64,000 nucleotides of DNA. Source: Pseudomonas nitroreducens TX1. Its GTDB lineage: Bacteria > Pseudomonadota > Gammaproteobacteria > Pseudomonadales > Pseudomonadaceae. Under the pieces are notes generated by a model. That model saw nothing but the letters and a program-made list of their open reading frames with translations. It ran no database searches and was not told the origin of the DNA. Below are positions 37,319-49,713 of this stretch, in pieces (position 1 is the stretch's first letter; every line of letters begins with the position of its first letter). A program made the translations under genes and the position numbers. The stretch spans positions 186,001 through 250,000 of the forward strand of contig NZ_AMZB01000136.1 in assembly GCF_000313755.1 (NCBI RefSeq). Direction: 5' to 3'.

Positions 37319-38296
37319 TCACTGGATGAGCAGACCCTCCAGTCGCTGGCGGATCAGCCCGCGCGCCTGCTCGACGATGCCGCGCAGCAGTTCCTCGCAG
37401 CTGGGCTCGTCATCGATCAGACCCTGGACCATGCCCGCCGACCAGATCCCCAGGTCGGTGTCGCCCTGCTCGTAGACCGTGCGCCCGCGCAGGCCGCTGA
37501 CCAGTGTGGCGATGTCGGCGTAGGTAGCATTGCCGCGTGCCTCGATGGCCAGTACCTCCTGGCTGATGACGTTGCGGGCGACCCGGGCGCTGTTGCGCAG
37601 CGAACGCATGATCACGTCGGTGGAGCGCTCGTCGGCGGCACGGATCGCCGCCTTGACCTGCGGGTGGATCGGGCATTCGCGGGTGCTGAGGAAGCGCGTG
37701 CCCATGTTGATCGCGTCGGCCCCCAGCGCCAGCGCCGCCACCAGTCCCCGACCGTCGGCGAAACCGCCGGAGGCGATGATCGGCACGCTCAGCCGGTTGG
37801 CCGCCGCCGGCAGCAGGACCAGGCCGGGAATGTCGTCCTCCCCCGGATGGCCGGCGCATTCGAAGCCGTCGATGGACACCGCATCCACCCCCAGTTGCTC
37901 GGCCTTGAGCGCATGGCGCACGGCGGTGCATTTGTGGATCACCTTGATGCCGTGCTGGCGGAACTCGGCGATGTGCTCGCCGGGGTTGTTGCCGGCAGTC
38001 TCCACCACGCGGATGCCGCCCTCGATGATCGCCGCGCGGTACTCGGCGTAGGGGATCGGCTTCTGCGTCGGCAGCAGCGTGAGGTTCACGCCGAAGGGCT
38101 GGTCGGTGAGTTCGCGGCAGCGCGCGATCTCGTCGGCCAGCGCCTGCGGAGTCGGCTGGGTCAGCGCCGACAGAGTGGCCAGGCCGCCGGCATTGGCGAC
38201 CGCCGCCGCCATCTCGGCGCGCCCCACCCACTGCATGCCGCCCTGCATGATCGGGTGCCGCACGCCGAAGGTTTCGGTGAATCGGGTCTTGAACAT
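37319..38296 (-). CDS. Nitronate monooxygenase-like FMN oxidoreductase
   Basis: A 325-residue TIM-barrel flavoprotein of the 2-nitropropane dioxygenase/nitronate monooxygenase family. Signatures are [20 protein letters not shown] at the start, [17 protein letters not shown] (a His-containing active-site loop) near residue 145, and [22 protein letters not shown] for FMN phosphate binding. In steroid degraders, IpdC, a relative, acts on CoA-thioester ring fragments rather than on nitronates. Here the gene sits 18 bp after an SDR gene at the end of the operon, so a role on an acyl-CoA is more likely than nitroalkane oxidation. The reaction is not proven. Confidence 0.85.
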
Positions 38297-38314
38297 GCGC
38301 CTGCCTCCGAAAGG

Positions 38315-39232
38315 TCAGATCGGGTCCCAGGAGAACACGTCCGGGCTGCGCGCCAAGTCCATGAAGCTGCCGCGCAACGCCGGCATGCCGTGCTCGGCGA
38401 TACTCTGCGGCGTCCAGCCGTGGTCGCTGTGCACGCTGCGCAGCGGGCGGCTCTGGCTCATCAGGAAGATCTCGTGGTTGCGCGCGGCGAACACCTGGCC
38501 GTTGACCGCACTGGCGGCGTCGGAAGCGAGGTACACGGCCAGCGGCGCGTTCTTGTCGGGCGTCATGCGCTGCAGGTTTTCCACCCGCGCCTTCTGTTCC
38601 GGCGTCTCGGCCGGGATGGAGTCGGTCATGCGGCTCCAGGCGAAGGGCGCGATGCAGTTGGAGCGCACGTTGTAGCGCTGCATGTCGAGGGCGATGGACT
38701 TGCTCAGCGCGACGATGCCCAGCTTGGCCGCCGAGTAGTTGGCCTGGCCGAAGTTGCCGATCAGCCCCGAGGTGCTGGTCATGTGCACGAAGGCGCCGCT
38801 GTTCTGCGCGCGGAAGTGCTCGGCGGCGGCGCGGCTGACGAAGAAGCTGCCGTTCAGGTGCACGTTGATCACCGACAGCCAGTCCTCGGCGCTCATCTTG
38901 TGGAAGATGGTGTCGCGAAGGATGCCGGCATTGTTCACCACGATGTCGACGCGGCCGAAGGCGTCGATGGCGCTGGAGACGATGCGCCGGGCGCTGTGCC
39001 AGTCCGACACACTGTCGGTGTTGATCGCGCCGTCGCCACCGCGCTGGCGGATCAGCCCGAGGGTTTCCTCGGCCGGGGACGCCGAGCCGCCCTCGCCCTG
39101 CAGGGACACGCCGATATCGTTGATCAGCACCCGCGCGCCGCTGTCGGCCAGGGCCAGGGCGATCTCGCGGCCGATGCCGCCACCGGCGCCGGTGACTATC
39201 GCTACCTTGCCTTCGTTGAGTCGTTGGGTCAT
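38315..39232 (-). CDS. SDR-family 3-hydroxyacyl-CoA dehydrogenase (HSD17B4-like)
   Basis: A 305-residue classical SDR resembling the dehydrogenase part of peroxisomal multifunctional enzyme (HSD17B4). It has VAIVTGAGGGIGREIALALAD, DI after strand 2, NNAGILRDTIFHKMSAEDW (a block typical of the peroxisomal/acyl-CoA type) and NYSAAKLGIVALSKSIALD for the Tyr-Lys pair. In this pathway it would oxidise the 3-hydroxyacyl-CoA formed by the MaoC hydratase. The C-terminal 50 residues (SDHGWTPQSIAEHGMPAL) are an added tail. It is 49 bp after the acyl-CoA dehydrogenase gene. Confidence 0.88.
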   Translation of the reverse strand: MTQRLNEGKVAIVTGAGGGIGREIALALADSGARVLINDIGVSLQGEGGSASPAEETLGLIRQRGGDGAINTDSVSDWHSARRIVSSAIDAFGRVDIVVNNAGILRDTIFHKMSAEDWLSVINVHLNGSFFVSRAAAEHFRAQNSGAFVHMTSTSGLIGNFGQANYSAAKLGIVALSKSIALDMQRYNVRSNCIAPFAWSRMTDSIPAETPEQKARVENLQRMTPDKNAPLAVYLASDAASAVNGQVFAARNHEIFLMSQSRPLRSVHSDHGWTPQSIAEHGMPALRGSFMDLARSPDVFSWDPI

Positions 39233-39281
39233 TGCTAATTCCTTACGGTTCGTTCAATCAGAAAGTTGGTTACGCGCACGA

Positions 39282-48762: not shown

Positions 48763-48866
48763 CGAGGTTTCTCCTTTGTTCTTGTTCTGCCTTTGTTGCA
48801 AAGTGCGTTACCGCCCATGCCAAGCCAGCTTCACGGAAGCCGTTGCAGGCGTCGCAGGGTCAGAAT

Positions 48867-48886
48867 ACATTCACAATACTGAATGT
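48867..48886. promoter_or_regulatory. Candidate IclR operator
   Basis: ACATTC / GAATGT (48867-48872, 48881-48886) form a perfect inverted repeat in the divergent promoter region, and CAGAATACA occurs as a direct repeat at 48861 and 48891, 30 bp apart. AT-rich half sites of this kind fit IclR-type binding. Confidence 0.55.
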
Positions 48887-48903
48887 CAATCAGAATACAG
48901 AAT

Positions 48904-49713
48904 ATGACCACTGAAAAAACCGTCGAAGAAGCCAGCAGCAAACGCACCGGCGGCGCAAAGGATGTCGGCGCCGTGGTGAATGCCATCCAGATCCTCCGCC
49001 ACCTGGCCAATGCCGAAGGCCCCGAGGGCGCGACCGCCATCGCCCGCGCCACCGGCATCAGCCCGAGCACCACATTCAATATCCTGCGCACGCTGAGCAA
49101 CGAGCAGCTGACCTCGTTCGACAACGAGACCAAGACCTATCGCCTGGGCCTGGGCCTGTCGGAGCTGGCTGTGAGCTTCATCGGCCGCAGCTACGCCGAC
49201 CTGATCCAGCCGGAACTGGAGCGCCTCAGCACCAACCACAGCATCCTGATCACCCTGTGGCAGGTCACCGACGATGCGCACATCCGCGTGATCGCCGTTT
49301 CCGCCCCAACCGTGGCGCACGTCAATGTTGCCGTGGGCTCGCGCCTGCCGGAACTGGTGGGGGCCGCCGGGCGCTGCGTCGCCGGGCTGCGCAACCTGCC
49401 CGAGGACGAACTGCGTCGCCGCCTGACCCGCGTACGCTGGGAGAATCCGCCGAGCTTCGAGGAGTACCGCAGCGACGCTGCGGCCACCCTGGAGCGCGGC
49501 TGGGCCATCGACCAGGACCACCTGTATCGCGGCGTCAGCATGGTCGCCAGCGCGATCATCGATCACGATCGCCAGCCACGCTTCATCATTTCCGGCATCG
49601 GCATCAGCGCCCAGCACGACCGTGAAAAGCTGGAGCAGATCGGCGCCGGCCTGCACGAGACGGCGCGCTTCATCAGCCGCTCGCTGTTCCCACAGATTGG
49701 CACTGCGGAATAA
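48904..49713 (+). CDS. IclR family transcriptional regulator
   Basis: A 269-residue IclR-type regulator. The winged helix-turn-helix is GPEGATAIARATGISPSTTF with NILRTLSNEQLTSFDNETKTYRLG as wing, and residues from about 100 form the IclR effector domain (HVNVAVGSRLPELVGAAGRC). It is divergent from the operon it most likely controls, and would bind a pathway intermediate. ATG at 48904 is used; an in-frame ATG at 48883 lies inside the candidate operator, and neither has a ribosome site. Confidence 0.88.
   Translation: MTTEKTVEEASSKRTGGAKDVGAVVNAIQILRHLANAEGPEGATAIARATGISPSTTFNILRTLSNEQLTSFDNETKTYRLGLGLSELAVSFIGRSYADLIQPELERLSTNHSILITLWQVTDDAHIRVIAVSAPTVAHVNVAVGSRLPELVGAAGRCVAGLRNLPEDELRRRLTRVRWENPPSFEEYRSDAAATLERGWAIDQDHLYRGVSMVASAIIDHDRQPRFIISGIGISAQHDREKLEQIGAGLHETARFISRSLFPQIGTAE

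Follow-up and report, generated by a model that had tools for sequence, protein, structure and literature searches.

In a 64,000-nucleotide stretch of the Pseudomonas nitroreducens TX1 genome (contig NZ_AMZB01000136.1, positions 186,001 to 250,000; hereafter the window), eleven minus-strand genes at 37319-48762 and a divergent gene for an IclR-family regulator form a genuine catabolic operon, conserved together with its single promoter box. On balance, we think it probable that this is an IclR-controlled operon for breakdown of a branched or alicyclic carboxylic acid, ending in retro-aldol cleavage. The gene set, the gene order, the promoter box, the residue patterns and the clade of the thiolase-fold protein are read directly from the sequences. 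A single IclR-linked operon for carboxylic acid catabolism, resembling that for steroid side chains, had been proposed in a first-pass annotation of this DNA, and this much is supported.

Conservation of the operon was assessed on 80 named loci that were chosen for the thiolase-fold gene, some of them cut by contig ends, with thresholds applied. The eleven genes and the IclR gene occur together on 10 of the 80 loci and an eight-gene core on 18, and the set is therefore an operon whose grouping is beyond chance. The DUF35 gene accompanies the thiolase-fold gene on 79 loci, the short-chain dehydrogenase/reductase (SDR) on 55, the MaoC hydratase on 49, the large acyl-CoA dehydrogenase subunit on 45, the ligase on 40 and the small dehydrogenase subunit on 31. 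The crotonase is found on 28 loci, the flavoprotein on 18, the transporter and the IclR gene on 15 each, and the thioesterase on 11.

In annotation the thiolase-fold protein is called a thiolase, a reading that we correct because the nucleophilic Cys is absent and the Tyr of the aldolases is kept. Residues were counted in 85 sequences, made up of the window protein and 84 called genes with 55% identity or more to it. The nucleophile position is Gly84 in all 85, where the solved thiolases 6esq and 7yvy have Cys; Gly also occupies this position in Ltp2 and Sal. The NEAF or HDxF motif of thiolases, with its Asn or His, is replaced by YDAF in every member, while three Cys-bearing control sequences carry HDCF, HDAF and NEAF. 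The YDAFTI motif, Cys327, His329 and Tyr333 are each kept in 85/85. Both hallmarks of a Claisen thiolase, the nucleophilic Cys and the NEAF/HDxF motif, are thus missing, and those of Ltp2 and Sal, loss of this Cys and a motif Tyr, are present. The motif Tyr is described as essential in both Sal and Ltp2 (PMC12329534). Neither the YDHF and second Tyr of Ltp2 nor the YDCY of Sal is found; instead, YDAF and His329 occur together in all 85 sequences.

A phylogenetic tree of 27 rows placed the protein in its own clade (support 99/97, 13 rows), separate from the Sal-type (100/100, 4 rows) and Ltp2-type (100/100, 3 rows) sequences and from Cys-bearing thiolases, although the deep branching order is unsure owing to long outgroup branches. 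Sal-type and Ltp2-type rows were assigned by motif and come from other Pseudomonadaceae. The predicted structure has a mean pLDDT of 82, with values under 50 at residues 81-84 (including Gly84) and over most of 117-138; its nearest matches in a fold comparison are 4u4e, Sal, Ltp2 and TbSLP. We conclude from residues, clade and fold that the protein is probably a retro-aldolase of a third clade, not a thiolase. Its DUF35 partner has Ser, Thr, Val and Ser at the four zinc-finger cysteine positions, each of which is Cys in 18 of the 56 aligned DUF35 sequences; the partner gene expected from Ltp2 and Sal is present, but its zinc cysteines are replaced. At least 60% identity to the thiolase-fold gene is found in 58 plasmid records, and 39 of the 40 plasmid rows listed are annotated as "thiolase" or "acetyl-CoA acetyltransferase", the remaining one being unannotated. 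Should the protein be an aldolase, pathways reconstructed with it as a thiolase are wrong at the carbon-carbon cleavage.

The spacer between the DUF35 and IclR genes contains a σ70-like TTGACA-16-TATTCT element on the minus strand (48889-48862), within which lies an inverted repeat, ACATTC-N8-GAATGT (48867-48886), that the IclR protein may bind. It is the sole promoter-like site in 35500-49800. The chance mean is 1.2, so that the count is no higher than chance and the weight rests on conservation of the box. Of 12 aligned Pseudomonas sequences, all but locus L018 (11 sequences) match the combined promoter and inverted-repeat pattern exactly. The pattern was found once in the 6.69 Mb genome (G000) with up to two mismatches allowed, and the reversed control gave none. 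Exact matches occur in 28 of 137 loci; each of these either belongs to the thiolase-fold gene of the operon or is the site in the window itself. An operon with a single promoter and a single operator makes the identity of the inducing acid a testable question.

The two acyl-CoA dehydrogenases are unlike subunits, as in the heteromeric igr/IpdE-type enzymes. Their closest solved relatives are 6wy8_A for the small subunit (100 bits) and 6wy8_B for the large (167 bits), i.e., Tcur3481 and Tcur3483, the two chains of one complex, and a two-subunit assembly is suggested by these matches. The small subunit scores 134 bits against the IpdE2 equivalog, below the curated cut-off of 450. The large subunit has YGG in 51/51 aligned sequences, presumably where enzymes of the medium-chain acyl-CoA dehydrogenase type have the YEG base. 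In NCBIfam the large subunit matches PimC best (280 bits), and PimD is also matched by the small subunit (126 bits), which would fit an operon for a pimelate-type dicarboxylic acid with a PimC/PimD-like dehydrogenase pair and a pimeloyl-CoA synthetase-like ligase. We take pauA to be PA1017, the ligase of this operon. P. aeruginosa pauA is called a pimeloyl-CoA synthetase, and was deleted in strain PA14, in a co-culture study (PMC12506151); PMC9894557 was discarded as a source for this name, the term occurring in its reference list only. We nevertheless regard a pimelate operon as quite unlikely. The PimC and PimD scores are far below the curated cut-offs of 623.85 and 652.7, IpdE2 gives the small subunit a higher score than PimD does, and a retro-aldolase would be unnecessary for a straight-chain dicarboxylate. 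The closest solved relatives remain the Tcur3481/Tcur3483 pair, which we take to be of the steroid type.

The closest solved relative of the ligase is the ADP-forming 4-hydroxybutyrate-CoA ligase (336 bits). The catalytic Ser-Tyr-Lys of the SDR is intact in 52/52 aligned sequences, and D190 and H195 of the MaoC protein are conserved in 49/49. For the crotonase, the annotated fold stands, but both hydratase Glu positions are replaced (by Ser/Ala/Gly and by Phe) in 21/21 aligned sequences, while Asp141 is invariant. We take these columns to correspond to rat Glu144/164 and Asp141 to the PaaG Asp. The protein therefore looks like an isomerase rather than a hydratase, leaving MaoC as the likely hydratase.

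The individual reactions, the role of the regulator and the class of substrate are proposed here by analogy. The major facilitator superfamily (MFS) transporter, perhaps together with the porin, would import a branched or alicyclic carboxylic acid, and the ADP-forming ligase would form its CoA thioester. The two-subunit dehydrogenase would desaturate the acyl-CoA, the crotonase-fold isomerase would move the double bond where required, and the MaoC protein would hydrate the enoyl-CoA to a 3-hydroxyacyl-CoA. The DUF35-bound thiolase-fold protein could then split this by retro-aldol cleavage into acetyl- or propionyl-CoA and a ketone or aldehyde. The SDR may oxidize a hydroxyl elsewhere or serve another round, the quinone oxidoreductase and the thioesterase may play accessory parts, and IclR would control the operon. 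A branched or alicyclic acid is our guess because retro-aldol cleavage is useful where the β-carbon is fully substituted and cannot become a ketone; the "cyclic or branched" substrate suggested earlier is plausible.

Several observations weigh against this pathway. The third motif residue of the thiolase-fold protein is Ala where Sal has Cys304, which is essential, the C304A variant being inactive, and His occupies the position of Tyr344, the acid in Ltp2 (PMC12329534). The invariant Cys327, two residues N-terminal of His329, could have a Claisen role, and the best fold match, 4u4e, is listed without function. The chief argument is the SDR, of the (3R)-hydroxyacyl-CoA dehydrogenase type and common among the loci, since its β-keto ester product suits a thiolase, not an aldolase. 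The large dehydrogenase is absent from 35 and the small from 49 of the 80 loci at the thresholds used, some loci being cut, so that the sequence of reactions is uncertain. The chance-level count of promoter-like sites counts on the same side, and to our knowledge PA1024 is the only operon protein with a known activity. In ordinary β-oxidation of an unusual acid, the MaoC protein would hydrate, the SDR would oxidize and the thiolase-fold protein would perform Claisen cleavage via, e.g., Cys327. The wide co-occurrence of MaoC and the MFE-2-like SDR with the thiolase-fold gene, the intact SDR residues and the invariance of Cys327 are consistent with this, and in the fold list the Z scores of the thiolases 7yvy and 6esq differ from that of Ltp2 by no more than 2. 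We think it unlikely, as the thiolase nucleophile is absent, the NEAF/HDxF site has no His or Asn and holds the aldolase Tyr, and YDSF kin of the protein do not have Cys327.

The flavoprotein, described at first as NMO-like, is indeed present and is of the PA1024 type, matching PA1024 (PDB 2gjl/6e2a) over residues 1-323 of 325 and being 90% identical to the P. aeruginosa gene of locus L093. By sequence it is a close PA1024 ortholog of the NADH:quinone oxidoreductase type. It does not belong to the core of the operon, since its 18 loci, counted at ≥60% identity, are all from Pseudomonas. The operon had also been called uncharacterized, which needs qualifying: its NMO is of a published type and a P. 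aeruginosa record annotates all of its genes, although no defined substrate was found in the open-license papers searched. An assigned pathway for PA1024, for which solved structures are available, was likewise not found in that literature, and the operon in P. aeruginosa (PA7 and a clinical plasmid) offers a physiological setting for this enzyme. PA1016 and PA1020-PA1022 are, we assume, genes of this operon. They are among the genes changed by cis-2-decenoic acid (PMC4412052), and a role in fatty-acid catabolism was proposed for PA1024, an NADH:quinone oxidoreductase, from genome context (PMC10033279). An accessory system of general fatty-acid oxidation, in which the quinone oxidoreductase keeps the NAD+/NADH ratio favorable, as that paper proposes for PA1024, is nonetheless very improbable, given that the operon has a ligase and a transporter of its own and a promoter box that occurs at a single site, and that the flavoprotein is confined to 18 loci and absent from the P. 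jinjuensis copy.

All eleven annotated genes are present in the one operon and in the families named for them, as judged by an open reading frame (ORF) check and profile searches (Table 1). Gene starts were set with guidance from the annotated lengths of P. aeruginosa orthologs. From the DUF35 gene to the NMO gene, the gaps (+) and overlaps (-) are -4, +112, -17, +39, -4, +4, -1, +16, +49 and +18; there are four overlaps where five had been reported, the fifth appearing only if the longest ORF is used for the large dehydrogenase. The IclR gene is adjacent and divergent as described, with a start probably at 48904, which is conserved, rather than at 48883. The OprD porin assigned to the operon's end is present downstream, but 239 bp beyond it and outside the coordinates first given.

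Table 1. Features of the operon and its borders (window coordinates)
Feature	Coordinates	Strand	Basis
Stand-alone DUF35/OB-fold protein, predicted aldolase partner	48376..48762	-	PF01796; zinc-finger cysteines lost
Thiolase-fold protein, predicted DUF35-dependent retro-aldolase, third clade (YDAF / HPGMYG)	47228..48379	-	Residues, tree, fold
ADP-forming acyl-CoA ligase, single chain	44980..47115	-	Pfam domains; solved relative
Double-hotdog MaoC enoyl-CoA hydratase 2	44115..44996	-	Asp190/His195 conserved
MFS transporter near aromatic-acid:H+ symporter family	42714..44075	-	331 bits, below curated cut-off 418.55
Hotdog (PaaI-like) thioesterase	42271..42717	-	Family matches
Small acyl-CoA dehydrogenase subunit (IpdE2/Tcur3481-like)	41208..42266	-	Family and PDB matches
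Crotonase-fold protein, predicted enoyl-CoA isomerase, without hydratase Glu	40444..41208	-	Residue columns, 21 sequences
Large acyl-CoA dehydrogenase subunit (Tcur3483-like)	39282..40427	-	Family and PDB matches; YGG
MFE-2-like SDR, (3R)-hydroxyacyl-CoA dehydrogenase type	38315..39232	-	Ser/Tyr/Lys intact
FMN protein, PA1024-type NADH:quinone oxidoreductase (NMO)	37319..38296	-	PDB 2gjl/6e2a, 646 bits
OprD-family porin, downstream of operon	35829..37079	-	Family match
Divergent IclR-family regulator	48904..49713	+	Family match; start by conservation
Promoter TTGACA-16-TATTCT with inverted repeat, predicted IclR operator	48862..48889	-	Conservation

An OprD porin also follows the operon in P. 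aeruginosa L093 (78% identical). The OpdD of PMC3480352 and PMC6249292 was ruled out as this porin, being PA4501/OpdP there. Just past the porin, a gene for an AidB-like acyl-CoA dehydrogenase (33378-35027) overlaps a TetR-family regulator gene (35024-35707). Elsewhere in the window, 26546-26802 matches the Pseudomonas small RNA P24 family of Rfam (190 bits).

The window's thiolase-fold gene is 99% identical to those of P. pseudonitroreducens and Pseudomonas sp. PDM18. In P. aeruginosa PA7 (L025), the eleven genes and the IclR gene are in identical order, and the stretch ends at the flavoprotein gene. Locus L093 has the full set and the porin, each gene annotated; it is an 847 kb conjugative plasmid of P. 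aeruginosa 2014S05-249 on which the operon lies alongside nadA, dapA, bamC and purC, and the operon with these housekeeping genes looks like a chromosomal stretch carried on a plasmid. In P. jinjuensis (L021, 9600-20300), no flavoprotein gene was found in the copy. The ligase and large dehydrogenase are 98% and the SDR 99% identical to those of the window, the thioesterase and IclR 89%, the thiolase-fold protein 90% and the DUF35 protein 76%; this difference may reflect exchange of the DUF35 and thiolase-fold genes together. A second P. nitroreducens cluster (L101; L022, 644-15811) has an 89% identical thiolase-fold gene with different partners, including aldehyde and alcohol dehydrogenases, a GMC oxidoreductase, a Cys-bearing thiolase and electron transfer flavoprotein (ETF) genes, and adjoins an itaconate/methylsuccinate set. 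In the window's own genome, contig C67 (L131, 1588-9968) has a block encoding a porin, a thiolase, a hydrolase, a metallo-β-lactamase fold protein, a LysR regulator, a cyclase, an SDR and a CoA-transferase, next to a methylsuccinyl-CoA dehydrogenase relative. This ring-opening block is a neighbor of the operon at L031 and L038, whereas at L037 it adjoins the DUF35-thiolase pair. The idea that the block is a required part was dropped, as the cyclase occurs in 6 of 56 relatives, two of which (G008 and G025) are without the operon.

Relatives of the methylsuccinate set were counted on the 80 loci at 50% identity. Methylsuccinyl-CoA dehydrogenase relatives are found on 12 loci, the CoA-transferase on 11, the isomerase on 6, and the lyase on 6 or 3 depending on the query. 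Any member is present on 20 loci, with only one member in 8 of these; 3-oxoacid CoA-transferase subunit A occurs on 11 loci, and its union with the set covers 28. The functions of these enzymes are reported for P. aeruginosa and C. necator (PMC12290011, PMC9875883). The arrangements differ among Rhodobacterales/Sphingomonadales loci, L042, L058, P. fluorescens HK44 (L037) and Cupriavidus, making several independent joinings with operon relatives likely. Methylsuccinyl-CoA is also the end product of methylaromatic 3-oxoadipate pathways, and this would lessen the weight of the neighborhood. Other findings speak against a link. In G000 the set is on contigs other than the operon's, and in G013 it is about 258 kb from the operon copy; the main copies of G005, G013, G023 and G024 are far from it. 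Within the genus, the copy close to the set is the second one, of 89-90% identity (22-31 kb start to start; G001, G003, G004, G024). Eight control queries were on 0/80 loci, although seven of these are Pseudomonas proteins at 50% identity and so a weak control outside Pseudomonas. Two ETF genes and succinate-semialdehyde dehydrogenase were on 1, 1 and 2 loci. Four other controls reached 7, 10, 11 and 11, three in β-proteobacterial-type loci of one arrangement and one in Pseudomonas neighbors of the window. Clustering by descent is therefore real, and we treat the methylsuccinate link to the operon's product as a lead only. Tentatively, we entertain a wider view: a third kind of DUF35-dependent retro-aldolase (with Tyr279 and His329 or Cys327, and a zinc-free DUF35 in this lineage) may serve a widespread non-steroid pathway, P. 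aeruginosa included, whose product enters as methylsuccinate or its CoA ester in several lineages. Itaconate reduction is the sole methylsuccinate source named in PMC12290011, and such a pathway would be a further natural source.

A steroid or bile-acid side-chain operon had to be weighed because the kinds of enzyme match the igr module, which comprises the ChsE1E2 dehydrogenase, ChsH1H2 hydratase and Ltp2-DUF35 aldolase (PMC12502768), and because the aldolase kin are Sal and Ltp2. We consider it highly unlikely. The thiolase-fold protein is in a supported clade apart from the Sal- and Ltp2-type sequences of other Pseudomonadaceae, and for IpdE2, the sole steroid marker searched in G000, the best match is the operon's own gene (133.5 bits). 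Several relatives carry other IpdE2-matching genes (160-170 bits), and G022 has both such a gene and this operon; therefore the two sets are distinct. A steroid C/D-ring pathway was also rejected: the operon NMO is 31% identical to that of L121, a Pseudomonas cluster with OXA-, NMO-, ECH- and dehydrogenase-like genes to which we gave the C/D-ring label, and those of its dehydrogenases that match the two operon subunits are 35-40% identical.

Among known systems, igr-type modules, including ORF40-44 of Comamonas testosteroni TA441, likewise combine two unlike dehydrogenase subunits, a MaoC hydratase and a DUF35-linked thiolase-fold protein without the nucleophilic Cys. The operon differs in its stand-alone DUF35 protein without zinc cysteines, its single double-hotdog MaoC, its additional ligase, transporter, SDR and isomerase, the clade and active-site residues of its aldolase, and in that only its own gene matches IpdE2 in this genome. 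For PA0878-PA0883, the itaconate/methylsuccinate cluster (PMC12290011, PMC9875883), relatives of one or another of its enzymes (dehydrogenase, CoA-transferase, hydratase, lyase, isomerase) adjoin operon relatives in several lineages, but this type of cluster is outside the operon, on other contigs of the window's genome. P. aeruginosa PA1024 (2gjl, 6e2a) occupies the same place in the same operon as its ortholog here, yet the published kinetic work on it deals with NADH and quinones rather than with any reaction of the operon pathway. The "putative thiolase" of Sphaerobacter thermophilus (4u4e) is 49% identical in the fold alignment and shares VGGSS, YDxF and HPGMYG, but has YDSF and a Tyr at the Cys327 position. 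CtSal (PDB 9myr) and TcLtp2 (PDB 6ok1) share the fold, the Gly at the nucleophile site, the essential motif Tyr and the DUF35 partner, whereas the window protein, with 31% identity across the structurally aligned length, has YDAF in place of their YDCY/YDHF, and HPGMYG where Sal has Gln352 and Ltp2 has Tyr344. The operon's aldolase is thus probably related to, yet distinct from, the steroid side-chain enzymes.

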